From Paramacrobiotus metropolitanus (lineage: Eukaryota > Tardigrada > Eutardigrada > Parachela > Macrobiotidae), in NCBI RefSeq assembly GCF_019649055.1, contig NW_026570283.1, positions 744,001 through 808,000 of the forward strand: a DNA stretch of 64,000 nt, read 5' to 3'. Both the position numbers and the translations under genes were made by a program. The notes beneath the pieces were generated by a model. It saw nothing but the letters and a program-made list of their open reading frames with translations, was not told the origin of the DNA and searched no databases. Shown here piece by piece: positions 5,764 to 58,136 of this stretch; positions within the stretch are counted from its first letter, which is position 1, and every line of letters starts with the position of its first letter.

Positions 5764-8413
5764 CTAATGTCGTGCATTCACCGGAACCATCGGATGGGTG
5801 CCGCCGTTGCCAGTTAAACGAGCGTCTACATGCCGCATTATCATCTCAAGAACAATAGACCAGATGCGCATAGGCGCTTCGGGGACTTACTTACAACGCT
5901 TTTCACCCTTTACATACAGACATCGAACGCAAAACCGCGCCCGTTTACGCGTCTTGCATGTATGTATGTACGGGCTAAACTCGACCGCATGCGCACAACA
6001 GTCAGCACATACAGACTGACAGTTAATATGCGTGCTGTGCTGACATTATGCTTCTAACGATAAACTGTAGCACTACATTTCTAAAAGTTAAACAATGACA
6101 TATAAGTTGATATAACCTGTTTAAAAGTAGCAAAACAAGGCGCGCTAAGGTACTGCTATGCAGTATTATTTTAAGCTAAAATAAACAAAAAAATACAACA
6201 AGATATACTAAAAATACTTCTGGGTAGCCAGATCACAGCGGGAACCCGCCACACGGTCAAGCAAAACATACAATTCTCTGTCAAAATATACGGACGAAAA
6301 ACCAAAAATGGGGTTGTCCAGGAGTATAAATCGTAGTCGGATTTCCACATCCGATCAGGAATTCAAGCACAGAATGCACTGCAATCAACACCCACAGCTG
6401 GGTAGCCAGCGCGCAGGGTTCCCTGCGATACGACGGCAGTAATACATGACAAGTATACCACAAATCGTTAGAGACAGCCACAAGGATTCATGGACCTTTT
6501 GGCAAGTCGGAATCAATTTGTAATACGCTAGTCAGCTGCGGTGGGATTCAAATTAATTTAAATTGAACGATAATCAGGTAGCAAGCGATCAGTATAAACA
6601 GGAGTGCATCTGGCCAAACACTATACTGCACCGTCTTATCTGGATTCCCAGAACACAGGCTTCCCTGCACTGTAGATGCATATCAGTTTCATATTTCTGA
6701 TTTCAACAACAAACTAGAAGGCAAGAACTTAAAAAACTTAAAAAAAGACGGAAAACCCTGTCGTTTTACTGTTTAACCGTCGCTGTCAGCCCAAAGTATG
6801 GAGAAACGATCACGTGGTTTTGAATTTTGCTATTGGCGGTGGGCAGCCTCGATCTAACTCAGAATGCTGACCCACCATTAAAAATCGCGGAAACACGAAG
6901 TTTGTAAGTACCTGGGCGTCGCTTAGACCCGTTACAAGGTACGCCCATGTTGGTAACGGTTTTCGTCGACGCCTAACGACAGACATCGAGCAAAAAGCGA
7001 CTTACATCGAAGCCCAGCCAATTGGGACTTGGTACGCCTATTTCTCGTTTCGATGTAAGTCGCAGATGCTCGATGTAAGTCCGCGTTTTGACTCTGCGCA
7101 TCTTCTGGAATATCCGACAATTTCCGCTTCCTTTGACGAGTTGATCCAATACAGCCGTTATCAACCTGTTACATCAGTACTGTGCATTTGGATTGAACTG
7201 CAGTAACTGTTAATATAAGCCTTTATGGGTATCCTGCATTACCTTCTTCCGGTCGTTTTCGACGTACTGCCAGAGCAGGGATAAAAGCACCAGAAAAAGT
7301 ACCACTAGCAATATAATACTAAAGGCTATTCCTGCCGCCACACCTTCCGAAAAGCCTGCAAAGTAATTGGCAAAATTCAGGAAAACCTTGAGCTCGAAAT
7401 GGAGAAATACCGCTGTCTTACTGGATTTCCCCAAGACACTGGGTAAGGTGTGTGTATTACACACGCTGCAGCACTGAATGATACACAGTCACTGTGTATC
7501 ATTCAGTGCTGCAGCGCCAAAACAAATTATTCAGTTTCTGTGGTTATGCAGTACATAAAATGCCAGGTTATGGGATTACACTGCATAGTTTCCGGATAAA
7601 GGATGTAGCTCTTGGCCTGCTGGTGAATGTTGACAATAACCGAGTCATTTCCCGGATTCAGGTAACCTTTCCGCTGTGCACACTTTAGCAAATTATTGGC
7701 GGCCTTAGCGGCCGCGTACGTTAGCGCTCTGTAGCCATCGCCTGCAGTAAAGATACGCAGTAATAAGGACTGATATTGAAACGCACACTGTTTTTGAGTT
7801 TATCGCGAAAACTATGTTGGTATTGTGCGTACCGGTTGTGGGAATATTTTCAATGAAGGCGGTAACGATGCTCTGGTCGTTGTAATCTCGATGGTAATCG
7901 GCTCGCCGATCCCAGCCGCGTCCTTCGAAAACACTGCCGTCCATTCCGATGAGGAAGCTGTGTATATTAATGCCGGGTAACTTTGGGTTCCGTTTAAATT
8001 ATAACCAGCAAAATTTTTCCTACGTACTTGTAGAAGATTTCGGGTACAAAGTTAGCTGAGGTTTGTGCCGTCCACGTCGTAGTATCCGTGTGGAAGTCCC
8101 GGATGGCGGTAACCACCGCCCGACACATGTCGAATTCCGTACAAGCTTCTCCCTTGGTGTCGGTGTATACCATGGACCGTACCGGATGGAGCAGATACGG
8201 AATACTGGCGTTTAGAGCCGGTGCGCCCCAGTCAGAGCGTGTGGTTATGTTGATGCCTGGACAGTCCATGCTGCTTGATGCTCTGTGTTTACTAGAACAT
8301 TCACTGGCAATTTTTGCTGCATCAGCGTAATATTGACTACTACGCTGCGAAAGAGCGTTAATAATTTGTGCTGACAACTGGACTATTAGGGCAAACAAAT
8401 ACCGAGGATGCAA
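5764..8413 (-). CDS. G1: single-pass membrane PGRP with short tail, tail exon split by an insertion
   Basis: Peptidoglycan recognition protein with a C-terminal membrane anchor. Exons on the minus strand: about 8344-8028 (PGRP N half, ITTRSDWGAP), 7957-7833 ([16 protein letters not shown]), 7741-7580 or 7582 (YAAAKAANNLLKCAQ), 7465-7422 (linker), 7355-7243 (transmembrane, GIAFSIILLVVLFLVLLSLL) and 7165 onward (basic tail, STRQRKRKLSDI). The linker exon is 44 nt, one less than in G2 and G4; the frame is kept only with the donor at 7581. The last exon is interrupted near 7107; sequence matching the end of the G4 tail (VDARL to the stop) reappears at 5850-5764. Read through the insert, translation would stop at 6932. 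His is replaced by Asp in the YTDTKG segment. The signal-peptide exon was not found. It lies head to head with R1. Confidence 0.75.
5853..7107. mobile_element. Non-autonomous element inserted in the G1 tail exon
   Basis: Comparison of G1 with G4 shows about 1.25 kb of extra sequence inside the last exon. Its ends are imperfect inverted repeats sharing AGATGCGCA and a GGACTTAC block (left near 5865-5895, right near 7070-7100). A short AATA or ATA may be the target duplication. Near the right end, inverted blocks (GACTTACATCGA and its complement) can fold at 6995-7080. No coding capacity was recognised. Class unknown. Confidence 0.55.
7464..7516. repeat. Perfect 25-bp palindrome with 3-nt loop
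   Basis: Arms 7464-7488 and 7492-7516 around TCA; each arm contains CTGAATGATACACAG or its complement. It sits at the acceptor side of the G1 linker exon (7465-7422) and changes that exon start relative to G2-G4. It probably arose by local inverted duplication. Confidence 0.85.
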
Positions 8414-8817: not shown

Positions 8818-11800
8818 ATGACGACGCGCTGCTCAGAAGTGGATATCATCTCGCGCTCTGCATGGGGCGCCCGTCCTGCCCGCGTGGCAAATATGACAAA
8901 GCTACCACAGCCCGCCAACGGTATGGTGTTCACGCATTCGTTTGGCGACGCCTGCTATGATGCCCGCAACTGCTCCCTGATCACGCAGCCCATGCAAAAC
9001 TATCATATGGAGACTAACGAAATTTCCGACGTTGCTTACAAGTAAGTTGTTTGGGTCGTCCACACTTTGTACTTTTTATTAGAAATATAAGGCGCATTAA
9101 AATTCAGTCTACACTAAGAGTCAGTCTACCGTGAGACCTTCAGATGTACGTAGTATTCAATTTCAGTAAACCAAGGGTTGACAGCAACATCAGAAAAACA
9201 GTCAAATCCAAAAATTTGACATGTATTTCGGTAGCAGTCGATTTCCTGCTTCCTAGCTGGCTTGATGTAGTAACATGAAAGGATCAGAGCTGAAAACCGG
9301 AATTGAAGGAGAAAGTTCCGACGCTGCCCGGTTTGGCGACTTAAAGCACATTTTATTTATCTTGGAGAACTTCAAAAATTCCCATTATTTTCCATTCTGA
9401 TTTTTTTTACCAGAACACAGCAAACAGGACTGTGCGAGAAAAGCGAACGTGACAAAAGAAGCGAGTAGTCAATTTATTATGCTAATCCTTGCTACTGTGA
9501 AAGGATAGGACGTACCTTGCACCTATAGTAGCTTGTGCGCCCAAAACACAATGGGCATAGCGTGTCATTGTCGGACCAGTGGAAGCCGCCAGTATAGTCC
9601 GGAAGACTGGTTTACGTAACGTAAACCTTTCTGTCTTTCTTCTTTGATCGTAACCAACAAACGTTTCTGCCGGCTATAATCGCAATAGCATAAACAACGC
9701 TGGGGTTAACTGCAGGTAGAACTGCAAGTTTACCAATTCCTTCTGCTCAATTTGCAATATTTTTGTCGCAGTTTCTTGATTGGCTACGATGGGTCAGTAC
9801 TTGAAGGACGAGGATGGTTATATCGACCGGCTTTACATAAAAAGTACAATGCGTTCAACTTTGGAGTGGCGTTCATTGGTAAATATCCGCCGTCGGGAGA
9901 CTACTTCACGAAAATGCCGTATCGGCTAATGCTCTGATTCAGTGCGCCCAATCACAAGGCTGGTTAAATCGGAACAATCACTCCGTGGTGACATTTCGGA
10001 TTAATCCCATCATGCGAAACTATATAACAAATCCCCGCCTGTTATTACGTAGGTGTTTTCTGTAGTGCAATGCATTTTCGCGATTTCATGATGGTTCGCT
10101 GCTTGTGATTCTAGCACCGCCCGTGATACCATCACCACCCATAGAACCACAAGGTTTGATGGAATGTTGCCGCCGTCAAAGCGGGCAAAGTTTGAGAGAA
10201 AATTATGCATTTAGTTGTTTCTTATATATGTTTTCGTTCTTATTTATGGTTCTTTTACATTTGAAACAAGGTTTCAACATTGATTTTAGCGAGTGTGCAG
10301 CGAAGCATGTTGAAATGTTTTACAACGGAAAATATTTGTTAAAATAATAAATGCAATAAACTCTTACTAAAAAAAAATTCATGGAATCACATAAAACTTG
10401 ACATAAATCCATAATAAATATATTCAAAAGGAACGGAAAAATTGGAAATCTTGAACATTTTGACGCCCTAGTTAAAGCAAAAACTTTCGCACAAATATGA
10501 TTATTATTGTTGTTTGAACAAATTTTTATTTTATTATTTCGAAGTTGTGAATTCCATTTGACCCCATTTTCGATAAATTTTTGTATTTTGTATTGTTAAA
10601 TAGCATTTCGCGATGGGTTTATCGCCGGATCGATAATGGCGCTGCTAATCGGTGTGATCCTGTTAGGTATCGTTTACTGGCGGGGAAAAGAACAGCGAAA
10701 AAGGTTCAAGGTGTGTTTGTTAGCTCCATCGGTCCAGTACTAACACGTTTTCACCCCTTTCTGATGCTATCGCAGCACTTCTGCCGCGCTACCGACTATA
10801 CTATCGCAACGAACTGCAGAAAACTATTCCAGCGGAAACAGTTGATCACTTTCTGATACCGCGACGTTCCATCGATATAAGTAACCAGGAAAAGAACGCT
10901 AACGACAAACGTCATTCTGTGCTTACGATGCGATTTAGTGTGATTGTATTTTGTAGAAAACGAACACTTAGGGAGCGGCCGCGATGGCCATGTTTTCATG
11001 GGATCCATGCAGTGCAAAGACATACGGCGCGCTAGTTGGTCATCCACGGGCACATCGGGTTCATGGCCCGTGGCGGTGAAGATGCTACGGGATTTCCCTC
11101 GGAACCAGTCAGCGACTAACGCATTTCTGTCCGAAATGGCCGTTCTGATGAAAGTCGGACGACATAGCAACATAGTCAGCTTAGAGGGCGTGGTTCTGCA
11201 AAGTGCACCTAACCATTCTGACACTGGCCAATGGAACCAAAAAGCCAGTCTTATAATGGTATTTTACAGGAAAACTAATGATGGTTATGGAGCACTGCGA
11301 ACTACGATCCTTGGAGTCATATCTATACACTATGCGAACCTCTACAGGACCTTTACAATCCGAATCGTCCAGTGAAGACCCCATTTCCAAAATTGCTCCA
11401 CAAGAACTGGTCAGTTTCGTCTACCAGATTAGTCGGGGCATGGAGTTCCTCGCCAGTAAAAGCGTCATACATCGCGATCTGGCCGCTCGCAATGTGCTGT
11501 TGGATGCGCAGAAGGTTGCCAAGATCGCCGATTTCGGGATGGCAAAGGAGCAACCTATCTACACACTAGAACGCGATAAAGTAACCACAGATATAAGGTT
11601 TTGCACTCGAAGACCCATCTGCAACGCGCGACCTGTCGTTTACAGCGCGAACAACAACTAAAGTGCTGTGACCTTTAGGTTCCTCTGCCTGTCCGTGGGT
11701 TAGCGCCTGAATGTCTGCAGCCAATCGTGCCATCTTTTCCACTGCCAGCGATATGTGGTCCTTTGGCGTACTGGTCTGGGAGATTTTCACACTCGGTGCA

Positions 11801-12100
11801 GAGCCGTACGCTATGGAATTCCCCAATGGTATCTGGTACGATCAGCTGTGTGCATTTCTTCGAGATGGCACACGCCTGAACCTTCCTGAACGATGTCCCA
11901 CCGAAATGTACGTGACTGTTGCTACAAATACGAGCGTATCCTGCATCGTTTCTTTCAGACGTCAAACGACCCTGGAATGTTGGGAGTTTTGGTCGGAACG
12001 GCGTCCCGATTTTTCCACGATTCGTAATCGTGTGGAACCTCTTGTGCCAATGATCGCAAAGTACATCGCTTGTGATGCGGCGATCGGGGCGCCAAATTGA
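8818..12100 (+). pseudogene. R1: PGRP-receptor tyrosine kinase, degenerate
   Basis: Same nine-exon plan as R2: 8818-9041, 9772-10048, 10115-10153, 10604-10710, 10776-10880, 10957-11202, 11270-11580, 11679-11907, 11959-12100. Recognisable parts include [22 protein letters not shown], the transmembrane exon ([18 protein letters not shown]), [23 protein letters not shown] and ADFGMAKE. Lesions seen by comparison with R2-R4: a deletion of about 13 nt near 9915 in the second PGRP exon, a 5-nt duplication (ACTAT) near 10793-10804 in the juxtamembrane exon, a 1-nt deletion near 11721 in the kinase C lobe, and Trp to Gly in the VRWLAPE motif. Each indel shifts the frame. Splice sites are mostly intact, so it may still be transcribed. 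Confidence 0.85.
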
Positions 12101-31900: not shown

Positions 31901-34900
31901 ATTGCATGTTTGCATAACGACTGTGCTATCTACGCCGGGAGAAGGCAGACCTGTGCCGCGTGCCCGTCAGCTGTACTGGTCTAGACTGGGAAAATTTTTT
32001 TGTTTTGAGGATGATCATAAGGAATCAGACCAGATCACACCTGAGTGTCACCGCAGGAATGCTTTATCCAGCATGTTATTTGCCGCTTTTGATATCGCCT
32101 TGCTTCCCGCTCTTCGGTGTACAGTGTATGCCACTATATATACTTCTACTATAACGTGCACTAGCGGTTGTATTCAGTTCATCGTTCCAGTGAGCCAGCC
32201 AGCAATACATGTACTGTACACGTCTATAAATTTAATTTTTGTTGTACATAATAAATTGGCATCGACAAAATTTCTTTCTTAATTTTGACTGGAGAAATTT
32301 CTTTCTTACTATTGACCTAAGAAAACTTCTTTCTTCCAAAAGTTCTTTTTTACTTTTGACATTGGCCCTCAAAAGGCCAAATTTTCCAAGTCTAGACCAG
32401 TACAGCTGACGGGCACGCGGGCACAAGTCTGCCCTCTCCCGGCGTAGATAGCACAATCGTTACGCAAAGATGCAATACACCTGCATGTGTGCGCAATGCA
32501 ATTCATAAAGTCTGCAGATGCAAAGCCATTTAGTCACACAAATTAATAAATTGTGAACTGTGCATACTGTGCGCGGTAGTAAAATGTGTTTTTAATGTAC
32601 AAAGAATGCAATACATTCCAGCCCCATAATAAAAATTTCTTTCTTACTTTTAACTGGAGAAATTTCTTTCTTACTATTGACCTAAGAAAACTTCTTTCTT
32701 CCAAAAGTTCTTTCTTACTTTTGACATGACTTGTGTACGGAATGTGATAAGCAATGCAAAATAGGGTTCAGAATTGCGAAAACGAAATTTCCCGTAAATG
32801 TATGAGTATTTTGTGCGACAAAACATACCAGTTCTCATGAGAAACGTAAAAAAACGTCGTTTACCGAATCCGCCGAAACGCAGGCTGTCGGTCAGAAGGT
32901 ATAGTATTTTGGGTAAGCAGTATACCAGTTAGTGAAGTAGAAAACAGAAAACAATGAACGATACTACGAGACCAACCGCTAAATTAGTTTTCGACCTTCT
33001 TCGACAGTGTAAAAAAAAATGTACTTCCGCTTTACAACCTCAGTTGATATCATAGCACGCAAGACGCCAGTGATAGCCAGTAAAACACTTTTTAACTGGA
33101 CAAAAGTATATTAAAAAAATATTCATAGTACCAAATCGCACGTGTCGTAATCATAAACCTGAATGTGGTGGCTGTGCGAGATGAGCTCTTTCAAGGTGTT
33201 CGTTCCAGAGGGATAAAGGGAGAAAATCTTTAGTTCATAAATTACTCGCACGGTCGCTCGGTTGGCCACCTGTGGTAAGTAAATGGGCGATGGGCGTTCA
33301 AAGTGGCCACCTTTTATTACAAATTCCACAAACCGATTTCCTTCCTGTTTTCTTCTTTACCCAGTTCAGCATAACGTACTCTATACATAGTATTTGGAAT
33401 TTTTGAAATATCTTCAACCGTTTTCATGCAATTGCGACGTTAAAAAAACAGTGACGAAACGATTAAGCCACGCCACGCGAGCCACTGCACTACACAATGA
33501 TTACTGCAGTCACCGCCTGACAGGTGCGGCTGCGCTGTCTCTGTGTAAATAACACATGTGCACAGTGAAAGTGAATATGCCTAACGAACAATTTTCAACA
33601 AATAAATAAGGGTGACATGACGCTATAGCCATCCCAAACACCCCAGTTTTTTATAGCCAAACCTTTTCCGCACCCCGTTAATTAGAGGCACCCTTTTTTA
33701 ATTATTTAATTAATTTTTTAGGCTCCCTGTTTTTTATAGGCACCCCTTAAGTAAGTGCAAAACTTGTACGAGTTCTTTACACGTTAAATACGGTTTATTG
33801 CCATGGTCGCTCGATTTATAATATGGAAATTAAGCATCTTGATACGTTCACTGCATGGCTATATAAAAAGGGTGGCTATAAAAAACAGGGTGCGAAAATG
33901 GGTGGCTATAAAAAGCGGGGTGAAAAAGGGTGGCTACAGCGATTTCCAATAATTAAAGTAATCAAATTAAAAATACGTGAATGCGGTGAATCTGCATTAT
34001 TCTGCGCAGCCGCACAAACGTGGCGATTACTGCAATAAACATGGCATAGTGCAGTGGCTCGCGTGGCGTGGTTTAAGTGTTTCGTCACTGTTTTTTTAAC
34101 GACGCATTTGCAAGAAAACGGTTCAAGATATTTCAGAAATTCCAAATATTATGTATAGAGTACGTTATGCTGAATTGGGTAAAGAAGAAGACCGGAAGGA
34201 AATCGGTTTGTGGAATTTGTAATAAAAGGTGGCCACTTTGAACGACCATCGCCCATTCACTTACTATAGGTGGCCAACCGAACGACCGTACGGGTAGGCG
34301 ATGATGCATGAAGACAACTAGCTGCGCTTTATAGATGCGAATCAAAAGTTGGAAAGCAAGGTGGGCAGCAGAATATTCAGTTGTCGCCGGCGTGCATTTT
34401 TCGAGGCGGCATTCAGCATTTAACCCTACATGCCCTGGGGTTTTTTCACGAACATCACCGGCCGGATCGTAATGCGTATTTGCAAATATATTACAATCGA
34501 ACAAACCTGCTGCCAGCAGATGTCATCCTTCGTAAATTGCCGCGGATGCCCACGTACGGCGTGGAGTACGACCTGGAGTCCATTCTGCATTACGGTGCCT
34601 TTGATTTGACGGATCGCCAGCAAGCTGATCTGCCGGCATTCCTTCCTAAAACCGGTTCCCAGGGCAAACGCGTAAAGATGGGTCAGCGACGCACTTTAAG
34701 CGCTAAAGATATCGTTAAGCTCTATACGGCTTACAACTGCACGGCTAACAGCGATTCGCTGCTGGAACCAGTTCCCAATTTTATACGGAGTCCTATGTCT
34801 GCGCACGTGTGTGAGACACTGGCTTACGCAAAATGCGGAGAACCATTAACCGTCGACTGCAGCACATCCAAAACCATAAGGCTTTTGTGCAACGCTAGCA

Positions 34901-36871
34901 CAAGCGCACGGGATTGGCAGGACACCGCAGCGACCGTAGCCAGGCTTCCCTTGCATGCGGTCTCATTATATTTGTTTGACAATATGGCGTTGTATGATGC
35001 ACCGGACGCTTTCCGTCTCATTCGCCGACAAATTCTTCTTATGCATTTTATTTTCTGCAAAGACTGCTATTCCACATCCGTGTTCTCACTGTTGGGTTTC
35101 GTTAACCTGGCGAAATTAGAGCTAGAGCTGTGCTACGGGCTGATTATCAAGAAGGCTGATTTTCACGGACTGAACCGACTGCAAATTTTAATCTTTAACA
35201 CCAGCACGATCAGCAGTCTTGAACTGGGCACCTTTACCAATTTACCAGCTTTGGAAGTACTAAGTCTGGAGAGCAACATCTTCGACAGAAGCCCACGCAT
35301 GTTCTTCAATAACGATAGTCGCGTGGCGTTTGGACTGCGGATGGACTATCTGCACCAGCTGCACTGCAGCTGCAGGTTTGCGCAGTTTCGTCAATGGCGG
35401 AACAATAACCGGGTCCTGCGACAAGAAGTTCATAGAGGGGGGCTACACTATCTCGATGGTATCATGGTCAATGACGAATATACCAGGAAGGATTTGTACT
35501 ATCCTGTGGACTGCAGCGCCGAGTCGTTTCCAATAACGGAGGCGGCGGTTAACATTTATCAACTGGAATATTCTATCAACGAGCCGCAATGTAAGATAAC
35601 AGATTTGCTCTTTTCCATTGTTCTAGCGGCGTTGTCGAAGAGTCATAACGGCAGTTCATGATATTTTGCGCAAGCGCTTCGTAATAAATGTGTTTGTTCC
35701 CTTCTTGCTTATACAGGTAATACCGACGCCGATGACGTCACAACTGAGGAGGCGTGCATTATCCAGATAGAAGGCATTGGGTCTATCGAAAAGTTAGTCA
35801 AATGCGACGGTATGTCAAAAAATGTTAAACCATTAATTTGGCTACACCATTAATTATTGTTGCCAATTGAATGATGTCTTCCTGGTACAAGTGGTGTGCA
35901 TGCCCGCTGACATTATTTTTCTTTCAGCAGGAAATTGTAGCTATCACCTACCGACAAATATAAGTGAATTTGCACCCCATATCAAACATGCCATACAAGG
36001 TACGATTGTTTTTCAATCCTAAACAAGTTAATTACGTTTGGATTAAGCGGTGACTATGATACTGAATAGCGGCAGCAGCCAGCAACATGCACAACGCGAC
36101 ACCAATTCACCATGGTTAGTACGCTCTCTCTCATTGTTCAGTGGTTTTCGATGTAACACCGTCAACTTTTGTTAGCTATGTCACCTTACGCGGCGGATTA
36201 TAATCTCTTTCCAGATCGTCTGTCCACACCACCTTTGCCACGAAATGGTAATTTGTTCAACATGGTCGTTTCTTTATTTTTTTTAATGAAGCCCAAGGTT
36301 ACTCTTTATTCGTCAAGCCTTCGAGGTGGTACTATACAGCAATCTTCACTGGTAACAGTGTTAAGAGAGATTCCACAAGTTTAGGAAAAAATAAAAGAGA
36401 TATCTAAATTACGGGAGAGTGAATCGGGCCGGGGCACTAGTACGTTATGTGTCTTGGGTATCTTGTGGTTGTGCTGGAAGAGTTTATACATTTCCGTACT
36501 TCTCCACAGACAATGATCAAACGAGATTATCCCCGCCTACTAATCCACCACACTGGCTGTATGGCTGCATTGCGGCACTGGCTGGTGTCGGTATCTTATT
36601 CGGGATGGTCTACGCCGCGCGTCGGCGTATTTTCAGCTGCTGGCAACGACATGGGAGAGTCCGTCCTCTGGAGCACGACCATCGCGCGGTGTCGCTGTTT
36701 GGCAATGAGCAGAGTCCGTCTCATTCATTGCAATCCATTGCGTTAATTAGTCATAACCACCGCGACGCACAGGAGGGATTGGAATCGGCATCGAACATGT
36801 CGGAGTCGACTGTAATGTTGGCTGTCGAAATGAGCAGCGACGATACGCCAGAAGACTGCCGTTCGTTTTAG
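25912..36871 (+). CDS. Membrane-anchored astacin-LRR protein, catalytically dead (5' exon missing)
   Basis: Exons 25912-26109, 26230-26353, 34335-35590, 35717-35809, 35931-35999, 36070-36114, 36176-36247 and 36510-36871 join with consistent phases. A first exon with signal peptide is not seen. The astacin domain is clear (DYSDKAEIEDALQSIA, GGQQNIQL), but the zinc motif reads HLTLHALGFFHEH, so the catalytic Glu is replaced, and the Met-turn Met is Leu (SILHYG). One LRR-like module with C-cap (LHQLHCSCRFAQFRQW) follows. Five small exons then encode a Ser/Pro/Asn-rich stalk, a transmembrane helix (IAALAGVGILFGMVYA), a basic stop-transfer ARRR and a tail of about 85 residues. It is probably a receptor-like or substrate-binding pseudo-protease. 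The acceptor at 35931 is a tandem CAGCAG. The intron 26354-34334 is packed with mobile elements. Confidence 0.85.
28128..30967 (+). pseudogene. RT-endonuclease retroelement ORF, copy 2, with stop and frameshift
   Basis: Starts at ATG 28128. There is no N-terminal zinc finger, unlike copy 1. The RT domain has ESGVQQGDPGGP and the active box FLDD. The frame is interrupted by an in-frame TGA at 29907-29909, with homology continuing in the same frame (GGLGIRRAEELAL at about 29986). The Cys-His motif CAGCGFQVTPDGHHGLSC follows. A 1-nt loss in an A run at 30577-30580 moves the frame, after which RPDG, WDAT and the C-terminal ISLAIIKGNAAAVLGTL appear. The 3' end is cut at 30967 by a MITE. Copies 1 and 2 are strongly diverged, so they are different families. 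Confidence 0.85.
30968..31429. mobile_element. MITE with 64-bp terminal inverted repeats
   Basis: Arms 30968-31031 and 31366-31429 match at 61 of 64 positions (starts AGTACTTCGCTTACTGCC). The interior is AT-rich (TATATATAGATAATA repeats). The trinucleotide GAT precedes and follows the element (30965-30967, 31430-31432) and is a possible 3-bp target duplication. It is inserted at the 3' end of retroelement copy 2. Confidence 0.8.
32741..33243. other. Intron sequence, nothing recognised
   Basis: Part of the long astacin-gene intron. No coding or structured feature found. Confidence 0.5.
33244..34296. mobile_element. Foldback-like element with arms of about 290 bp
   Basis: 33244-33530 and 34005-34296 are imperfect inverted copies; GGTTGGCCACC, AAGTGGCCACC and CAGTGACGAAAC recur as complements. 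Its right end lies 38 bp before an astacin-LRR coding exon. A second element (33610-33947) sits in its centre. Confidence 0.75.
33610..33947. mobile_element. GGGTGGCTATAAAAA-type MITE, copy 1
   Basis: The left end has CTATAGCC and TTTTTTATAG; the right end has several GGGTGGCTATAAAAA units, an inverted arrangement. It ends GATTTCC. AATAA flanks both sides. The related, larger copy at 50086-51194 shares both ends. Confidence 0.65.
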
Positions 36872-40507: not shown

Positions 40508-41978
40508 TCAGTCTGTCGCGTCAGTACGGTAGGTTGTTATTCTGGATATAATATTAATTTTCATACGAGTATTAATGAGTGTCGACTTTACCCTAATGAT
40601 CCATTCGCCTTCGCAGTGCTGACAAAGTAAAGCCAACAGCACAACAGCAAGAACCGTTAGCAAAATAATTCCGAAAGCTATTCCTGCCGCGACCCCTTCC
40701 GAAAAGCCTGCAGAAGCAATGCCATCAAAAACTTCCAGCCTAGAAAAAAGACATAATGCTGAATCTTGCGTTGTTTACTGGGTTCTTCAAAGGCAGTGGA
40801 AATAACTGTTGTGTCGTTCGGGGCTGTAAAGTCACAAAAACGTTTTTTTAGCAAGATGCATGATGTTGTGCTCTAAGGATCTAAATATGTACACTGCATG
40901 GTTTCCGGATAAAGGATGTAGTCTTTGGTCTGGTGGTGAATATTGACGATAAGCTTGTAGTCCAGATCGAAGTAGCCATTTGACCGGGCGCAATTTAACA
41001 GGGAGTTGGCGGCCAGGGCGGCTGCGTAAGTTAGTCTTCTATATCCGTCCCCTATACGAGTAGTATACGTATGTCAACCAGCTGCTGTTTATTATTAAAA
41101 ACTGAGCAGACGGTTATGGAAATTATCAAGGCCACCAACTGCGCAGCCCCACGTTGCTCGCATTTTACCCCAGTCTCACGCTTCGCACCAAAAATAAGAA
41201 ACTGTTAACAAACTCCTACCTGATACAGGAATATTCTCGATGAAGGCAGTTACAAGAGCGTGTTCATCGTAATCACGATGGTACTGCGCTCGGCGATCCC
41301 AGCCGCGTCCTTCAAAAACACTACCGTCCATGCCAATAAGGAAGCTAAGAAAAAAATAACTTTTTGTGTCCGCCTAATCATCCTTGATAATGGGCGTAAT
41401 TATTACTTGTAGAAGATTTCCGGTACAAAATTTGCTGCAGTCTGTGCCGTCCACGATGTGACATCGGTATGGAATTCACGGATGGCAAGCACCACGTCCC
41501 GACACGTTTCCCAACCCGTACAGGCTTCGCCCTGGGTGTGGGTGAACACCATATACGGCACGGGAGGGAGGAGATACGAGATGCTAGCGTTTAGCTCGGG
41601 AGTGCCCCACATGGACCCTGTGGTTATATTAACGCCTGGACAGTCCATGCTTGGTACACTACATTTTGTGCGTGGTGACGTCGCAACTATGAACACCAGT
41701 AGAAGTACTGCTGCAACGTTTGTATGGGTCAATCGGGTTATTAGGGCAGGCAAACAGAAATGTTGTAGCAGGTAACGCCGTAGTTGCGCTTCGTAATTGA
41801 TTTGGCCGTTGGATCGTTTGTTCAGTGAGCGAAGACGAACGACACAGTAATAACTATATGATAACGTAGACGGCTCGATGTGCTTTAACTGCGCAATATC
41901 GGCCGATAGCGGCAGGAAATATGCCGGCATGCTGCACCTTTGTGCAAATATTATGTCACTTTTTATCTCTACAAACAA
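40508..41978 (-). CDS. G2: single-pass membrane PGRP with very short tail
   Basis: Minus-strand exons: up to 41407 (PGRP N half; CPGVNIT, MVFTHTQGEAC), 41344-41220 ([16 protein letters not shown]), 41051-40893 (YAAALAANSLLNCARSNGY, IVNIHHQTKDYILYPE), 40823-40779 (linker with NDT), 40707-40592 (transmembrane GIAFGIILLTVLAVVLLALL). Phases agree throughout. His is present at the first zinc position, but the C-terminal amidase His and Cys are absent. After the membrane helix only about 7 to 30 residues follow, depending on use of a weak intron; no basic STRQ motif is seen. The ORF is open to 41978, but a splice acceptor near 41697 and a conserved block at 41934 suggest the true 5' end differs. 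Head to head with R2. Confidence 0.82.
41934..41953. promoter_or_regulatory. Conserved upstream block of pair G2/R2
   Basis: GCACCTTTGTGCAAATATTA, about 56 bp before the proposed R2 start codon (42009). Matches blocks at 8523 and 55539 upstream of pairs 1 and 4. Confidence 0.5.
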
Positions 41979-42008: not shown

Positions 42009-45000
42009 ATGCCGCAGTGCCGCTCTACCGTGATTGTCGCGATTGTTGTAGTTTTGTCAGTCTGAGTGTTTACGGTGCCTTTAACTGCAAGTACGAAGTC
42101 ATTATTGAGATTACGATATTATTTACGGAAGTACAGATTCCACACGGGAATTTATGTAGCGAACGGTATCTGTGTTGTACTACGATGACGCCTCTGTGTC
42201 CGGAAGTAGCCATCATTTCCCGAAAGGCCTGGGGTGCCCGAGATGTCCGCGTGACGGAGATGGATATGCTGCCGCAACCTGCCACCTGCATGGTGTTTAC
42301 GCATTCGTATGGCGCTCGCTGTTTTGATGCCCGCAACTGCTCCCTGATCACTCAGGCCATGCAGACGTATAATATGGACACCAATAAAAGGCCGGACATT
42401 TTTTATAAGTAAAGTTATTGTACCGTTCACTTTGACTTCTAGTGTAGGATCATTACCCATCGAGGAACATACAATGGACTACAAAATTAATTTTGACGCT
42501 AACCGATATATGTAGCCAAAGAAGCATCCATTGTAGCCCTCTGTGTATTATTTTACTTCCGATTTACGCTAGATAGCAAACTGACTACCGTACATGGCAT
42601 GCAAAAACTATAGTTTTAAAGGTGGGATGTAACAAGCCATTTTGCATTCTAGCTTCCTGATTGGTTACGATGGTTCGGTCTTCGAAGGAAGGGGCCGGAC
42701 TTACAGGCCGACGGTTAACTGGAAGTACAATGCCTACAGTTTGGGAGTCGCTTTCATTGGGAAATATCCTCCATCCGGGGACGACTTCACTAAACTGTCG
42801 TATCAAGCCGCGGTATCGGCCAGTGCCTTGCTGCAGTGCGCGCGCTCGCAAGGCTGGTTAGATGCCAATAATCACTCTGTGACGACATTTCGCATTAACC
42901 CCATCATGCGCAAGTATATACTGAACCCCAGTCTACTATTACGTAAGCATTCTATGATGTACTCGTATATCGGGCAGCAAAAACTGGTGAAATGTAATTG
43001 ATGTAATGGGTGGATTTTGCTCGTAGCGCTTCAGGTTCCGGCACAACCGGCAAAAGAACCTCAAGGTAAACGGGAATGGCAGCGAGTAACGTTCTACCAA
43101 CTGATGGATAAAATCTAAGTTTTGTATGTGATCAGTAATGTTATTTAACCGATTTCGCAGCGTTCCGGGATGGGTTCATCGCGGGATCGATCATGGCGCT
43201 TCTAATTGGTCTAATCCTTCTTTGTGTTGTCTACTGCCGCGGCAAACAACAACGAGAAAATTACAAGGTGATTAGACTGGGGGCCGAAAACTGCCCGGCA
43301 TACTGTATTAAGGTCTTAAGCAGTATTGTTGTTTTGAAATCTTTCGAGCTTAGCTTATGTAGAACCGTTGTCGAATTTACTCGCACTAAAAAATGAGTCT
43401 AAAAAGAAGTCGTTTTGCAATAACTTAATCTTCTGACAAGCCCTAATTCCCCATACCTCATCATTCAGATGGAGGGCATCGTCGGGTTTTACAGCAACGC
43501 ATGGAATCATTTTACTAACGTAACGAAGGATTGCAGTGCCAACAGTCGCTCGAGAAATGATATTCAAAGCACGTAAAAGAATTGTACAACTTTATTTTAA
43601 AAACATCCTATAAGCAGTAGTTGACCTAACCCTTGTTACTGTTATAGCATTTCTGCCGCGCTGCCAATTATCGAGAAGAACTTCTGAAGACGGTCCCATC
43701 GGAAACTGTGGATTACTTTACGATACCACGACGTTCAATCGATATAAGTAAATTAAAACAGGCACTGCAATAATTCTTGTCGGTTGCTAACAGCAAAATA
43801 ATCCAGGTAATTTTAGAGGATGAACACTTGGGAAGTGGTCGAGACGGACATGTTTTTGTGGGTGCCCTGCACTCCAAAGAACTGCGGCGCTCCAGTTGGT
43901 CTTCCACCGACACATCGGTCGCATTGCCCGTAGCCGTGAAGATGTTGCGGGAATTATCCGCAAACGGGCCAGCGGCAAGCGCGTTTCTTTCCGAGATGGC
44001 CGTCCTGATGAAAGTCGGGCGACATACCAATATTGTCAATCTGGAGGGTGTTGTCCTACAAGGTATTTCTCGTCGCCTTTCTTGCAGAGACAAATTGATA
44101 ATACTGAATTCTCATTAATCGCATAACCACTGCTTAGGCAAACTCATGATGGTTATGGAACACTGCGAACTGCTGTCCTTGGACTGCTACTTGCACACTC
44201 TGCGAACTTCGACTGAATCTGTACAATCCGAACCATATAGCCAAGATCCGAACCATCAAGCCTCAACAGTCATCGTACAGGAACTGAACAGTTTCGTTTA
44301 TCAGATCAGCCGTGGCATGGAGTTTCTCTCCAATAAAAGCATCATTCATCGGGATTTGGCTGCGCGCAATGTGCTGCTAGATGCGCAGAAGACTGCCAAG
44401 ATCGCCGATTTCGGGATGGCTAAAGAGCTTCCTGTGTACACTTTAGAACGCGACAAGGTAACTTGTTACCAAAACCAAGCAAAGACAGCATAGTTACTGC
44501 ACTGGGAAACTGTTCTGCCATATACGGTCCAAACAGCAAATCCTTGTCTCCTGACTAATGAGTAAAGACTAAAAGTTTTGTGAACTTCAAGGTTCCTTTG
44601 CCCGTCCGCTGGCTAGCTCCTGAGTGCCTGCAGCCAAATCGTGCCGTATTTTCCACCGCTAGCGACGTTTGGTCCTTTGGGGTGATTGTCTGGGAGATAT
44701 TCACGTTTGGTTCAGAGCCGTACGCTGTGGAATTCCCGAACGGTATCCTGTATGATCAGCTGTGCGAGTTCCTACGGCAAGGCTCTCGCCTGAACCTTCC
44801 AGAAATATGCCCCACCGAAATGTAGGCGATTTTGCATGCTTATGCGATGGTTTCATGAAGCTCTTTCTTGCAGACGTCAAATGGCTATGGGATGCTGGGA
44901 GTTTGAACCGGAACGGCGTCCAAGCTTTTCCACCATTCATCGTCGGGCGGAGGCTGTTTTGCCGGTATCTACCAAGGATGTCTATGTCACTTGTGATGTA

Positions 45001-45087
45001 GAGAGCTGCACGCCAAATGATCAGTCTGAAACGTTACGCGTGATCTTGAATAGCGAAATGCCGGTTATCAAGATTCAGTCGCTTTAA
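42009..45087 (+). CDS. R2: PGRP-ectodomain receptor tyrosine kinase, intact
   Basis: Exons 42009-42055 (proposed signal peptide, [15 protein letters not shown]), 42160-42408, 42653-42942, 43027-43065, 43161-43267, 43648-43747, 43817-44062, 44138-44457, 44592-44821 and 44874-45087 give 613 codons without a stop. Ectodomain: [10 protein letters not shown], the FTHSYG zinc-site segment, a C-x5-C pair and [14 protein letters not shown] of PGRPs; the C-terminal amidase His and Cys are missing. Then come a Pro/Gln-rich stalk exon, a transmembrane helix ([17 protein letters not shown]), a 33-residue juxtamembrane exon and a tyrosine kinase with [44 protein letters not shown] and [17 protein letters not shown]. 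The activation loop has one Tyr (PVYTLERDK). The tail ends VIKIQSL. The first exon is a proposal; the others are strongly supported by paralogue comparison. Confidence 0.92.
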
Positions 45088-45961: not shown

Positions 45962-47434
45962 TTAGGGTGCAGTGGCGGGTTGATGAGGTGGACTATGGTG
46001 CGCTTCTTCCACGTGGCCAACATCAGATTGACCCCTTTTCGTCAGGCTGTTCAGCATCACATCATTGGAGTTCTCACATCGGCTGGATTCAGCGAAACCC
46101 TGTAAATATAACCACAGTGCTGATTGGTAATAAATTTCGTTTTCACAAATGAAATCTCGGTTTCTAATCGGTGCACTCGTCACTTTCACAATCTGTAAGA
46201 TTTGTGGGTTAATAGTTTTGTCTTCATTTACCAAAACCACTTCATTCTTGGCGATCGCAGGAACATGAAAAAGTCGGGTTAACTCCGTCCAGATTATATC
46301 AGGCCAATTCCGATTCCGGTGGCTTCGTGAATCGCTACCGACGTTATCAGCCTGTGAGTCAACGCTGTCAGTTGTGCTAGTGGTTTGACATTTATGCCGG
46401 CAGAATGTATACCTGTTTCCAGGTGCTGTTGGTGTGCTGCCAGAGCAGAGCCAAAAGCGCCAGAGCAAGCACCACTAATAGTATGATACCGAAAACAATT
46501 CCCGCCACCACGCCTTCCGAAAAGTCTGGCACGAGTTATAAACCGAAACTGTCAACAGAGCGACACCATCGTCATTTGTGCGTTCTTACTGGGCTTTTCC
46601 GCAACAAAGGGCGCATCTGTGTCATTCCGCGCTGCAATGTCATTATGATGATTTGCCATTAGTTTGTTATGTGCAGGAGATCATACTCAAAAGAAGACAT
46701 TAGCCCTACGTTTCAGTGTTTCAGGGTGTAAAATGTAGTCTTTGGCCTGCTGGTGAATATTAACGATAACCGAGTCCTTCATTGGATTCAAGTAACCATT
46801 TGACCGGGCACAGACTAAGAGAGCATTCGCTGTTTTCGCGGCAGCGTAAGTTAAAGCTTTATAGCCGTCATCTATAACCAAGCAAAAACGCATGTTTGGA
46901 TCGGGATGTTGCCGAAAAAATTCAGAATCATACGTACTGGAAATAGGAATATTCTCAATGAAGGCGGTAACAATGCCCTGCTCGTTGTAATCCTTGTGGT
47001 ACTCGGCTCGCCGATTCCAACCACGTCCTTCGAACACGCTCCCGTCCATGCCAATCAGGAAGCTGAAAGCGAACATTGGGAGCACGTCATACTGCATTAC
47101 GACGCATCCAGTACAAACCGGAGAATTTTTGGGCTTACTTGTAGAAAATTTCGGGAGTAAAGTTGGCGGCCATCTGGGCAGTCCACGAATTAGGATCCGT
47201 GTGAAATTCCCGGATGGCGGCTACCACCGTCCGACACATGTCGAAATCGGTACAGGCCTCCCCTTTGGTATGCGTGTACACCATGTACGCCACAGGATGG
47301 ATCAAGTAGGGTATGCTAACGCTCAGATCGGGGGCGCCCCAAGCGGACCGTGCGGTTATGTTGATACCGGGACATTCCATGTTTGCAGCGTTGTATCTGC
47401 AGTAAGTATTAGTATTCAGCCGGCACGTGTACAA
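45962..47434 (-). CDS. G3: single-pass membrane PGRP with 129-residue cytoplasmic tail
   Basis: Minus-strand exons: about 47396-47139 (CPGINITARSAWGAP, MVYTHTKGEAC), 47062-46938 ([16 protein letters not shown] region), 46871-46710 (YAAAKTANALLVCARSNGY), 46631-46590 (linker NDTDAPF), 46525-46413 (transmembrane GIVFGIILLVVLALALLALL) and 46351-45962 (tail). All phases agree. The tail starts ADNVGS like the G4 tail (ADNECIGS) but is much longer and unrelated after the first 20 residues. It contains INPQILQIVKV and a Tyr pair in ENEIYYQSALWLYL. No kinase, death or TIR domain is recognisable. The signal-peptide exon was not identified. Head to head with R3. Confidence 0.83.
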
Positions 47435-48072: not shown

Positions 48073-51000
48073 CAGCCGCGGAAGACGGATGGCGGCACAG
48101 TGCTCGGAAGTGGACATCATTTCGCGCTCGGCATGGGGCGCTCGAGTTGTCTCCGAGGAGGACATGTTTGATTACGCCATGACACTGCCCGCCACCTGCA
48201 TGGTGTTCACGCATTCGTATGGCGCTGCCTGCTATGATGCCCGCAATTGTTCCCTGATCACTCAAGCCATGCAGATCTATCATATGGACACCAACGAGAT
48301 TGCCGATATTGCATACAAGTAAAGTAGCAACAAGTACAATGCTACAATGGTAAAGGCGCGCATATACCGATACATTCAGGGCGTAGTCGTTTGGTAAATC
48401 AATAGCTTTAATAATTTTGTTACAACATTTTTTAACTGCGGACTGACTGGTCAATTTCCTCTATTTCAATCATAAATCGCTTATCATGAGTCATCGCTTA
48501 TGTGTCGCAGCTTTTTGATCGGCTCCGACGGATCGGTACTCGAAGGGAGAGGCTGGCTTTACCGGCCATCACTGCACCGCCAATATAACGCGTACAGTTT
48601 CGGCGTCGCATTTATTGGGAAATACCCACCCTCTGGAGACGACTTCACCAAAATGTCGTACAAGGCGGCTATCTCCGCCAACGCCCTGATACAATGTGCT
48701 CGCTCACAGGGGTTTCTGCAACCAAACAATCGTTTCGCGCTCCCGACGACATTCCGCATCAATCCCATTATGCGAAACTACATAATGAATCCCCATTTAC
48801 TGTTGCGTAGGTGTTTGTTAAAAGCCAATGCTGCAGTCAGTAGTGAATGTAGGATGCAAGTTTGTGTTTCTAGCGCCTCCCATTTCGCCGTCACCACCCG
48901 CAGAGCCTCCAGGTACGCCGAAAGGTCAAACTGGACTTACTGGAGTAAAACTGGGAAATTCAATGAATAGTGTTGTACTTATCAATTAAACGCTCGCAAC
49001 TGATTCCCACAGCGTTTCGCGATGGATTCATTGCCGGATCAGTTATGGCGCTGCTCATCGGTGTGTGCCTATTTGGTATAGTGTACTGGCGAGGCAAACA
49101 GCAACGCAGGAGATACAAGGTGAGTACCGCGGTCCTAAATTGACTAACGCTGGTCCAGCGAATCACCATTAATTTTGCACACTTGTTGCAGCATTTTTGC
49201 CGCGCTGCTGATTATCGCAAGGAGCTTCTGCAATCCGTCCCATCGGAGCTTGTGGATAACTTCATGATACCACAACGTGCAGTCGATATTAGTCAGTTAA
49301 ATATGTTACTAGACATGTCGTCGTTGTTATAAAGACGTAATCTGTATACGAGTACTTGTAGAAGATGAACATTTGGGAAGCGGTCGTGATGGCCATGTGT
49401 TTACGGGTGTCCTGCAGTCAAAATATCTGCGGCGTACCAACTGGTTATCTAACACAACAGGGACATCCGGCTCCTTTCTCGTGGCTGTAAAGATGTTGCG
49501 CAGCTTATCCAAAAACGGAGCAGCGGCAAGTGCCTTTCTGTCGGAAATGACTGTCTTGATGAAAGTTGGACCACATCGTAACATTGTCAACTTAGAGGGT
49601 ATTGTTTTGCAAGGTAAGTTTTCTATTCAATGGAAAATAATTAATCCACAGAAACCTCTGTACACTGAAAAAACTACAAATCGGCACTGCGTAAACTACT
49701 TTCGATTCGCTGCGTTTTACCTCCTGTGACATCTACTGCATTACCGGTCTACCGTGATCAATTTTGCTTTTCTTCCCCACCATTCGTTAAGCGTACTACC
49801 ATGGTACCGTGTGCCGTATGGTACCATTCGGCAGCTGCATGGCATTAAGAACGTTGAATGACTGTATTAGTCTTCATTGTTGCAATCACAGAAGATTTGC
49901 GTCTTTTTAACTTTTTTAGTTAGTGATGCAATGCGGCTTTGGCATCGTCATGGCCAATCTTTATCCTATCCAGATACGATGCTGACAATTTTATTTCATT
50001 TCCGTCAAAAAAACTTCTTTAAAAAATCCGCCAGAAATCTTCTAATGGAAAACGTGATGTAACCGCATTAAGCATTTATTTTGCCGGGTGACACTATAGC
50101 CACCCTTAAACCCCCCCCCCCGTTTTTTATAGCCGCCCCTTTTCCGCACCACGTTAATTATAGGCATCCTTTTCTCAGTTAATTAATTAAGTTTTCAAAC
50201 ACCCTGTTTTTTATAGGCACCCCTTTTATAGGCATTTTTGCGTAACTTAATTATATTAGGATGCTGTGATGTCTGTGCTTGTACAGTTGCTCGGACAATG
50301 AAGGAGCCCTTTCCGCTCTTCTAACATGTGACGTTCGCTCACTAATATACTGACCTGTTCGAGGACGACAATGGTATGGACTGCGTACAGGCACTGTACG
50401 GTTCCCACTCTTTTGTGCTTCCACGTAAGGTGGCACACGAATACTTCGTGTGACTTCGTGTGAGTCAGTGAATGTATAAAAGCCTTAACAGTGAGCTTTC
50501 GCCACACGTCCTTCTCCAGTTATCCATGAGACCATTTGTGTGGAGGTGAAGTGGATGAAATAACTGCACGATTTCGTGTGGTTCAGTTGCAGACAGCTGA
50601 ATCCAACCAGTGCGGTCCGCTGGTATGCTCATTCATGGCCGATATTGATTACGGGCCGTGGACGAGACCGTGTTTGCAAAAGCCGAAGCCCAGCGCAAAT
50701 GGCTTGCGGAAGCGCTTAAAAAGAAAGAGATCGCGCGTTGTCCTAAGAGTACTGGACGAAATCCAGTCAATGAACTGAATCAACTGATTAAGAAAAGAGT
50801 TCGAATATGTGCGCGTAACGGCCGTAGCAGGCTGCTGTTATACGGTCCATGTTATCTGATCAGTCTAACACACCCACTGTTGGGTGATTAAGGCTTAAAA
50901 CAACTGATAATTTGAAGTCCTCAGATAAATTATAAAAATTAATTAGAAAGGGGTGTCTATAAAAAACAACAACGGGGTGTCGTTATTTGATGAATAGTAA

Positions 51001-52233
51001 AAAAGGGTGGCTATAAAAAACAAGGTGCGAAAAGCCAAAAGGGGTGGCTATAAAAAAGGGGGTGATTATAAGGGGTGATAGGGGGTGTTAGGGGGTGATT
51101 TTATTATAATTGTGGAGCGAAGCTCACTTTGTACATACTGAGAAATAAAATCCATGTAAAAAGGGGTGAAAAGGGGTGGCTATAGTGATTTCCTATTTTG
51201 TTATCATTATGTTTTCCAGTAATATAGTAGCTCACCGAGTGAAAGGGTTGCGGAAAATAACGAGTGTACAGAATTGTTAACAACAAAAACATATAAGGGA
51301 TGATTTCCGACAACTAGGTAAGCTTATGGTGGTTTTGGAGCACTGCGCACTGCGATCCTTAGAGATCTATTTGCAAACTACCCGAACCTCTACCGAATCT
51401 GTGGAATCCGGATCACCTAGCCAGAATTCCATCTCACCGGATGTCGAGAAGGAAATGGTCAGTTTCGTTTACCAGATTAGCCGGGGCATGGAGTTCCTCG
51501 TCAGCAAAAGCATAATCCACCGCGACCTGGCCGCGCGAAATGTGCTTCTGGATGCGCAAAAAACGGCCAAGATCGCCGATTTTGGAATGGCGAAGGAGCA
51601 ACCCATATACACTTTAGAACGCGACAAAGTGTGTAACCAACCAGACATTTCAGCTTGCACTCGCAAATCTTGCAGTCTAAACTCCTCGTAAACGAGTAAC
51701 GACAAATAATATTTTTGTGACCTTAAGGTTCCTTTGCCCGTCCGCTGGTCAGCTCCTGAATGCCTGCAGCCGAATCGCGCCGTCTTTTCCACCGCTAGCG
51801 ACGTGTGGTCCTTTGGGGTGGTTGTTTGGGAAATCTACACGTTCGGTTCAGAGCCGTACGCTGCGGAATTCCCGAACGGTATCCTGTATGATCAGCTGCG
51901 CGAGTTCCTACGGCACGGCTCTCGTCTGAACCTTCCAGAAATATGCCCCGCCGAAATGTAGGTGTGATTTTGTTTGCTTTGTAGGTGATTTTGCCTGTTT
52001 CATTAAGCGTTTCTTGCAGACGTGATATTGCTATTGGATGCTGGGAGTTTGGACCGGAAAGGCGTCCAAGCTTTTCCACCATTCGTCATCGTGCGGAGGC
52101 TGTTTTGCCGGTGTCTGCCAAGGATGTGTATGTCGCTTGTGATGTAGATTGCTGTACGAAAAATGATCAATCTGAAACATTACGTGTGATCATGGACAGC
52201 GAAATGCCGGTTATTAATGTTCAGTCGCTTTAA
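48073..52233 (+). CDS. R3: PGRP-ectodomain receptor tyrosine kinase, intact
   Basis: Exons: from about 48076 (acceptor TTACAG; first Met 48089) to 48318, 48511-48806, 48874-48912, 49013-49119, 49192-49291, 49362-49613, 51318-51628, 51728-51957 and 52020-52233; from Met 48089 this gives 592 codons with no stop. Ectodomain motifs [31 protein letters not shown]. The stalk exon is proline-rich ([14 protein letters not shown]). Transmembrane [18 protein letters not shown]. Kinase: [70 protein letters not shown]. Tail ends VINVQSL. Intron 49614-51317 is expanded by a 1.1-kb element. No signal peptide in the listed exons; a separate first exon is expected in 47435-48060. Confidence 0.92.
50086..51194. 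mobile_element. GGGTGGCTATAAAAA-type foldback element, copy 2
   Basis: The left end (CACTATAGCCACCC) and right end (GGGTGGCTATAGTG) are inverted. Many TATAAAAA units lie inside both ends. TATTTTG occurs at 50077-50083 and 51195-51201, a likely 7-bp target duplication. The interior (about 50540-50780) encodes a short segment, [18 protein letters not shown], that resembles the C-terminal active-site region of Ulp1-type cysteine proteases, followed by a basic KRLKRKRSR stretch. It sits in the kinase intron of R3 and leaves the exons untouched. Confidence 0.7.
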
Positions 52234-54022: not shown

Positions 54023-55235
54023 TTAATGTCGTGCACTAACCGAAACCGCGGGGTCGTTGCCGCCTAAACGAGCGTCAACAAGTCGCATTAACGTCCCTAA
54101 CATGATGTCAGACAACTTCCGCTTCTGTTGACGAGTTGACCCGATACACTCGTTATCAGCCTGTTGTGTCAGTTTTATGCATTTAGATCGAATTGCAGTT
54201 AGCATAAGCCTTTTATCAATGTCGTGCATTACCTTCTTCCAATCGTTTTTGATATACGGCCAGAGTAGAGATAAAAGCACCAGAAGAAGTACCACTAGCA
54301 ATATAATACTGAAGGCAATTCCAGCGGCCACACCTTCCGAAAAGCCTACAAAGGGAAATTCCGGCCTACAAGATTTTCGGCACAATTCTAGGGAACGCTG
54401 AACCTAAAATGGCATCACGACAGACTGCTGCCGTCTTACTGGGCTTATCCAGGGTGCTGGGCAAAGTGGGCGTGTCGTTCAGAGCTGCAACGCCATAAAA
54501 AATATGCAGATTTTTCCAGATATGGACTTAGTAGGAAAAATGACAGTTTATAATATTACACTGCATAGCTTCGGGGTAGAGAATGTAGTTCTTGGCCAGC
54601 GGATGAATGTTGACAATAACCGAGTCGTTCCCCGGATTCAGGTAGCCCATCCACTGTGCACACTGCAGTAAATTATTGGCTGCTTTGGCAGCCGCGTACG
54701 TTAGCGCTCTGTAACCGTCCCCTGCGAAAACACACAAGAATGAATGATAATCGCAGTTTTATTGTTTCGGATTTCGTCGTCCAAAATATGGCATTACACA
54801 GTACATACCGGCTGTGGGAATCTTCTCAATGAAAGCGGTAACGATGCCCTGTTGATTGTAATCGCGATGGTAATCGGCTTGCCGATCCCAACCTCTGCCT
54901 TCGAAAACACTACCGTCCATTCCGATCAGAAAGCTAAATTAATAACCGGCAGTTACAATTTGCAGAACCAGAAATTTCATTACATATGTACTTGTAGAAG
55001 ATTTCCGGCACGAAGTTAGCGGCGGTCTGGGACGTCCACGACGTAGTGTCCGCGTGGAATTCGCGGATTGCCGCGACCACTTCCCGACACATGTCGAAAC
55101 CCGCACACGCATCCCCCTTGGTGTCGGTGTATACCATGTACCGCACCGGGTGGAGCAAGAACGATATAGTAGTGTTTAAAGCGGGAGCGCCCCAGTCAGA
55201 CCGTGTAGTTATATTAACGCCTGGACAGTTCATTT
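54023..55235 (-). CDS. G4: single-pass membrane PGRP with short basic tail, intact
   Basis: Minus-strand exons 55235-54992, 54933-54809, 54721-54560, 54484-54440, 54345-54233 and 54160-54023; from Met 55233 they give exactly 274 codons. PGRP motifs: NITTRSDWGAP, MVYTDTKGDAC (His replaced by Asp at the first zinc position), [31 protein letters not shown]. The linker has NDTPTLPSTLDKPS. Transmembrane GIAFSIILLVVLLLVLLSLL. Tail of about 45 residues with STRQQKRKLSDI and ending SVSARH. The Met may not be the real start; an acceptor just upstream suggests an unseen signal-peptide exon. Lacks the C-terminal amidase His and Cys. Head to head with R4. Confidence 0.87.
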
Positions 55236-55762: not shown

Positions 55763-58118
<2,356 letters not shown>

Positions 58119-58136
58119 GACTGGCTCAATCCGTAC

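Follow-up and report, generated by a model that had tools for sequence, protein, structure and literature searches.

To our knowledge, animal peptidoglycan recognition proteins (PGRPs) serve as amidases, as secreted sensors or as membrane proteins that signal via adaptors. Drosophila PGRP-LC is a type II protein whose PGRP domain lies at the C-terminus. Receptors of the VEGFR, KIT, PDGFR and FGFR types have immunoglobulin ectodomains. Plant LysM receptor-like kinases unite an ectodomain of a bacterial-wall-binding type, a transmembrane (TM) helix and a kinase in one chain, and work much as is proposed below for a tardigrade protein.

Among the membrane PGRPs of flies, PGRP-LF has been reported, in the available part of the source, to compete with PGRP-LC dimerisation (PMC3724876). 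For tardigrades, the available text of a survey based on P. richtersi transcripts, and not on the genome used here, reports PGRP homologues only in eutardigrades, Richtersius excepted, and describes tardigrades as possessing Tir-1/Nsy-1/Sek-1/Pmk-1 and as being without Relish and without intracellular Toll components (PMC7056985).

The window analysed here is a stretch of 64,000 nucleotides of Paramacrobiotus metropolitanus (C63:744001-808000), and the genome searched was the assembly of 169,799,020 bases in 533 contigs. A query with a CAHS protein, a eutardigrade marker, has 20 matches in this assembly (the best at 65% identity, E 3.0e-69). On the plus strand of the window, a gene that we call R2 joins a PGRP domain, a proline-rich stalk, one TM helix, a juxtamembrane segment and a complete tyrosine kinase in a single open frame. 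Its nine coding exons (42185-45087) yield 589 aa, and its introns are all GT-AG, with phases 2,1,1,0,1,1,0,2. Two PGRP exons are followed by stalk, TM and juxtamembrane exons and by four kinase exons:

42185..42408, plus strand: coding exon 1, encoding the PGRP domain's first half from the proposed start Met onward (ATG conserved across copies)
42653..42942, plus strand: exon 2, second half of the PGRP domain (gene model, PDB match)
43027..43065, plus strand: exon 3, stalk rich in proline, 39 bases long in each of the four window copies
43161..43267, plus strand: exon 4, TM helix with basic stop-transfer
43648..43747, plus strand: exon 5, juxtamembrane segment
43817..44062, plus strand: exon 6, N-lobe of the kinase (GSGRDG, VAVK)
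44138..44457, plus strand: exon 7, kinase insert
44592..44821, plus strand: exon 8, kinase motifs APE and SDVWSFG
44874..45087, plus strand: exon 9, kinase end and tail with the conserved Tyr

An initial, sequence-only reading of this locus had known of no animal membrane PGRP with a kinase. Literature text searches, with subscription papers and protein databases outside their scope, leave that statement uncontradicted: no title or abstract among the matches listed describes a PGRP-kinase receptor, and the available text of PMC4158122, in which ‘PGRP domain’, ‘tyrosine kinase’ and ‘kinase domain’ occur together, treats these as belonging to separate proteins.

Nine exons and 589 aa are likelier for R2 than the ten exons and 613 codons proposed at first; the model comes to 622 aa with the additional exon at 42009, and the figure of 613 was not reproduced. 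This exon (42009-42059), previously read as encoding a signal peptide, would provide one for R2 alone. It has no recognisable counterpart 5′ of three other window copies (R1, R3 and R4) or of the copy on contig C6, and it was dropped from the model on these grounds and on account of the conserved ATG at the next exon. Since an ATG lies 3–5 codons 5′ of the first PGRP Cys in all 12 PGRP-tyrosine-kinase copies having the first PGRP exon (R1-R4, C6, C89A-E, C118B and C118C), translation of R2 probably begins at 42185. The proposed start of C89A comes immediately after a stop codon; the ATG before the first PGRP Cys is shared by five kinase-less PGRP-TM genes and absent from the five Ser/Thr-kinase copies read (see below). 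By eye, the nearest upstream AG is 16, 48, 13, 24 and 9 bases from the Met in R1, R2, R3, R4 and C6, respectively, and these differing distances leave no common phase for an upstream exon; single copies may nevertheless have a non-homologous upstream coding exon.

Joined R2 matches the Pfam families PK_Tyr_Ser-Thr (E 3.1e-71) and Amidase_2 (E 4.7e-6; 27.4 bits, cut-off 26), as does joined R3 (6e-67 and 1.7e-7, respectively). Amidase_2 exceeds its cut-off in R2, R3, C89A and C51d, and falls below it in the kinase-less M3 (24.4 bits, cut-off 26). The top PDB match of the R2 PGRP part is human PGRP-I-alpha (5.8e-20). For the kinase, the best single-domain scores are those of VEGFR2 (178 bits), then KIT, PDGFR-alpha and FGFR1, and the top whole-sequence E-value belongs to a chain in which the EGFR kinase domain occurs twice (115.7 bits for each). 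All canonical tyrosine-kinase motifs are present in R2, as the sequence-only reading had stated; among the tyrosine-kinase copies of the genome, the first three motifs tested (DFG among them) occur in 13/13 and APE in 12/13. Of the 12 tailed copies, 11 retain a tail tyrosine (Y-[VI]-x-x-D), and C89C has Phe instead.

With these motifs and a single TM helix between ectodomain and kinase, R2 is predicted to be a receptor tyrosine kinase. A TM-like stretch with basic residues toward the kinase is found in 11/13 PGRP-tyrosine-kinase copies. Its hydropathy is 2.2-2.9, and in six copies the kinase side of the helix carries 5–7 basic residues vs 0–2 on the other side. Against the model speaks that R2 probably lacks a signal peptide, so that secretion of its 170-residue N-terminal domain needs an unusual topology. 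We infer that the protein is inserted N-out via its TM helix, without a cleaved signal peptide and with the positive side to the kinase.

R2 had been described as one of four occurrences of the same exon plan in the window. The plan is indeed present four times, but while R2 and R3, both with GT-AG introns, have an unbroken frame, R1 has frame breaks (exons of 277 for 290, 105 for 100 and 229 for 230 bases) and R4 a stop. A kinase-less PGRP-TM gene on the opposite strand faces each of the four, as well as the C6 copy:

8818..12100, plus strand: R1, pseudogene, its frame broken in three exons
48089..52233, plus strand: R3, the other intact copy, 592 aa from nine exons, with one intron of ~1.7 kb
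55796..58118, plus strand: R4, last exon with premature stop at 58118
7225..8269 (ends approximate), minus strand: M1, kinase-less PGRP-TM gene, head-to-head with R1
40600..41648 (ends approximate), minus strand: M2, kinase-less PGRP-TM gene, head-to-head with R2
46400..47380 (ends approximate), minus strand: M3, kinase-less PGRP-TM gene, head-to-head with R3
54220..55233 (ends approximate), minus strand: M4, kinase-less PGRP-TM gene, head-to-head with R4
41937..41952, plus strand: CCTTTGTGCAAATATT in the R2 head-to-head intergenic region

The last of these elements, which we take to resemble a C/EBP or POU site, recurs at 8527-8542 and, with one mismatch, at 55543-55558, and is therefore found in three of the four head-to-head intergenic regions of the window. 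These are its only matches in the window, where 0.10 would be expected.

Further features of the window are an insertion-like sequence 3′ of the R4 stop (58103-59340), with a similar short stretch at either end by eye, and two long ORFs, 1918-4071 (minus strand) and 28086-31114 (plus strand), which by eye resemble reverse transcriptases of non-LTR elements. Two plus-strand ORFs, 34312-35661 and 19378-21876, combine an astacin metalloprotease domain (Pfam 9.1e-29 and 3.5e-39) with subsequent LRR-like sequence (LRR_8 below cut-off), an unusual combination; the former is possibly continued by a TM segment and tail at 36395-36871.

The PGRP-kinase family extends beyond the four window copies. A genome search with the Pfam profile PF01510 had the soluble C25 PGRP as its sole match and missed the exon-split divergent PGRPs, which is why protein queries were used for the genome counts. 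The protein PGRP query yielded 59 exon matches, confined to eight contigs (C63, C6, C89, C118, C51, C388, C58 and C25), and the genome holds about 25 PGRP genes in total. Thirteen are PGRP-tyrosine-kinase copies with same-strand exons at four loci (four on C63, one on C6, five on C89 and three on C118), five are kinase-less PGRP-TM genes (M1-M4 and one at C6) and one is soluble (C25). Another five join a PGRP and a TM stretch to a Ser/Thr kinase (four on C51, one on C388), and C58 has a probable sixth, with exons across about 24 kb that were left unjoined; in the C388 gene, the TM stretch is apparently divided between frames. This second kinase has matches to NEK2 (1.2e-15), MAP3K2 and ULK1; it has HGDLKPGN, with DLD replacing DFG, and belongs to a large family in this genome (109 exon matches).

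Judged by sequence, PGRPs have thus certainly acquired two distinct kinase partners. As to whether the tyrosine-kinase fusion arose once or several times, the trees do not decide. In a kinase tree of 26 domains, which included 12 of 13 other kinase loci (C26 was left out, its matches being fragmentary), the PGRP-tyrosine-kinase label has to change twice (once is enough in 8% of bootstraps), and C37, an LRR-like receptor tyrosine kinase, and others fall within the comb of the PGRP-linked kinases. The PGRP tree likewise needs two changes (one in 10% of bootstraps); here the Ser/Thr-kinase set is one clade (100/99), and the tyrosine-kinase set does not form a resolved clade. No PGRP-profile match was found in the 13 other kinase stretches, of 3–4 kb each, beyond which a PGRP would escape. 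C37 itself (minus strand, 5999-2242 of its stretch) combines a related tyrosine kinase and a TM helix with an ectodomain that is LRR-like and rich in S/T (LRR_8 at 18.5 bits, under the cut-off).

The R2 model rests on splice signals and homology, which leaves room for the idea that a gene for a membrane or secreted PGRP and a neighbouring, separate kinase gene were joined in error. We consider this highly improbable, and the earlier view of R2 as a single gene holds up well. In 6/6 copies measured, 168-555 bp lie between the end of the PGRP and the TM exon (R2 218, C6 168, C89A 256, window copies 179-555), and within the window this interval contains the conserved 39-base stalk exon, in phase on both sides. 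The R2 TM exon, like the stalk exon before it, starts within a codon (phase 1), and within the TM exon no ATG lies ahead of the helix. The order of PGRP and kinase is repeated on the same strand at three further loci (C6, C89 and C118). Finally, the dN/dS ratios of the R2-R3 pair are low throughout, at 0.20 for stalk and TM, 0.21 for the juxtamembrane segment, 0.19 for the kinase, 0.31 for the tail, 0.17 overall and 0.10 for the PGRP part, the last being only rough because the PGRP dS of 1.77 is close to saturation. From these ratios, the joined PGRP-TM-kinase architecture is conserved by purifying selection. The same result weighs against a decaying family made up mostly of relics, of which R2 and R3 would be late survivors. 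Six of the 13 tyrosine-kinase copies do have lesions or missing pieces (R1, R4, C89C, C118A, C118B and C118C), but the other seven are lesion-free in their matched exons (R2, R3, C6, C89A, C89B, C89D and C89E; C89B requires an extra intron in the HRD exon) and selection acts on every part of R2 and R3, so that general decay has very little to recommend it.

More serious is the question of what the ectodomain binds. At the position that we take to be the first amidase zinc ligand, all 16 kinase-linked or M-type PGRPs compared have Thr or Arg, and the soluble C25 has His. None of the 16 therefore carries the zinc-ligand set of a catalytic amidase, and the loss suggests that they are sensors and not enzymes. 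The kinase-linked PGRPs also lack the TECPG-like Cys, in a region where the C-terminal zinc-ligand columns aligned poorly; at the GHR site, the C6 copy still reads THR. The disulfide pair of the PGRP domain is complete, with both Cys, in 11/11 aligned kinase-linked or M-type rows, and EGRG is invariant in 12/12 aligned PGRPs, although in R2 it is followed by Arg (EGRGR) and not by the Trp of the other PGRPs (EGRGW), and the ligand of R2 may differ as a consequence. These proteins could then be ordinary receptor tyrosine kinases whose borrowed ectodomain no longer binds the wall, and instead binds a host ligand or only dimerises. The vanished zinc ligand and the Trp missing from R2 fit this idea, as does the membership in the same receptor group of C37, whose ectodomain resembles LRRs (18.5 bits against a cut-off of 27); the fly proteins PGRP-LF and PGRP-LCa are reported, in the available text, not to bind peptidoglycan (PMC3724876). 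Against it stand the strong constraint on the PGRP core (dN/dS about 0.10), the unchanged EGRG and an expansion in tandem clusters that fits immune receptors. On balance, we hold the loss of wall binding to be unlikely, albeit far less so than the two preceding alternatives.

The reading that we prefer, and regard as likely on the sequence evidence, is that R2 is a single-pass receptor with a non-enzymatic PGRP outside, linked through a short stalk and a TM helix to an active intracellular tyrosine kinase, that it has an M-type partner and that it partly replaces PGRP-to-Imd signalling. R2 would be transcribed, bind its ligand and be active as a kinase, and would couple wall detection to tyrosine phosphorylation, as first suggested for this locus. 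Peptidoglycan fragments would cluster or dimerise the PGRP domains, upon which the kinases would phosphorylate one another and the conserved tail tyrosine, which in turn would recruit downstream adaptors. The kinase-less PGRP-TM protein encoded on the opposite strand could pair with the receptor, either as a co-receptor or, by analogy with PGRP-LF, as a decoy. R2-type receptors would take the place of PGRP-to-Imd signalling at least in part. A search of the genome for Rel homology domains (RHD) gave one match, in an exon-wise search that may miss others; judged by eye against NFAT sequence, it looks NFAT-like.

If true, a PGRP that brings its own kinase would sense the wall as a self-contained receptor and parallel, in an animal, the receptor kinases of plants, which could explain how water bears without the insect-type pathway sense bacteria. 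The tardigrade response to bacteria, with PGRPs kept and Relish reported missing in the available text of the survey (PMC7056985), becomes testable, as does the manner in which immune receptors arise through ectodomain swapping on a kinase family; the head-to-head pairs of kinase and kinase-less genes are a ready test of decoy vs co-receptor control. A bolder reading is that bacterial sensing was rebuilt on receptor kinases as in plants, with PGRPs joined to kinases of two unrelated kinds (VEGFR/FGFR-like tyrosine kinase and NEK/MAP3K-like Ser/Thr kinase), 18 or 19 of 25 PGRP genes ending in a kinase and kinase-less partners expressed from shared divergent promoters, in a lineage without Imd-Relish; we see the chances of this as evenly balanced.

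Compared with the known systems, R2 shares with Drosophila PGRP-LC and PGRP-LF a non-catalytic PGRP, one TM helix and the adjacency of signalling and non-signalling members; PGRP-LC, however, signals via a RHIM in its intracellular part (PMC3724876, available text), whereas R2 has a complete tyrosine kinase after the TM helix in place of a RHIM-bearing cytoplasmic part. The PGRP domain of R2 is N-terminal, unlike that of PGRP-LC. With the soluble amidase PGRPs (C25 and human and fly PGRPs), the PGRP fold is common by sequence, but C25 keeps HHTAG and GHRQ...TECPG, whereas in the kinase-linked PGRPs the first His is replaced by Thr or Arg and TECPG is absent. R2 resembles the VEGFR/KIT/PDGFR/FGFR receptors in its kinase, the insert between the lobes, the juxtamembrane segment and the tail, and departs from them in that its ectodomain is a PGRP. 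Plant LysM kinases differ in that their ectodomain is unrelated, Amidase_2 being the only Pfam domain outside the kinase in joined R2 and R3, and in that the tardigrade sets are built on a tyrosine kinase and a NEK/MAP3K-like kinase.
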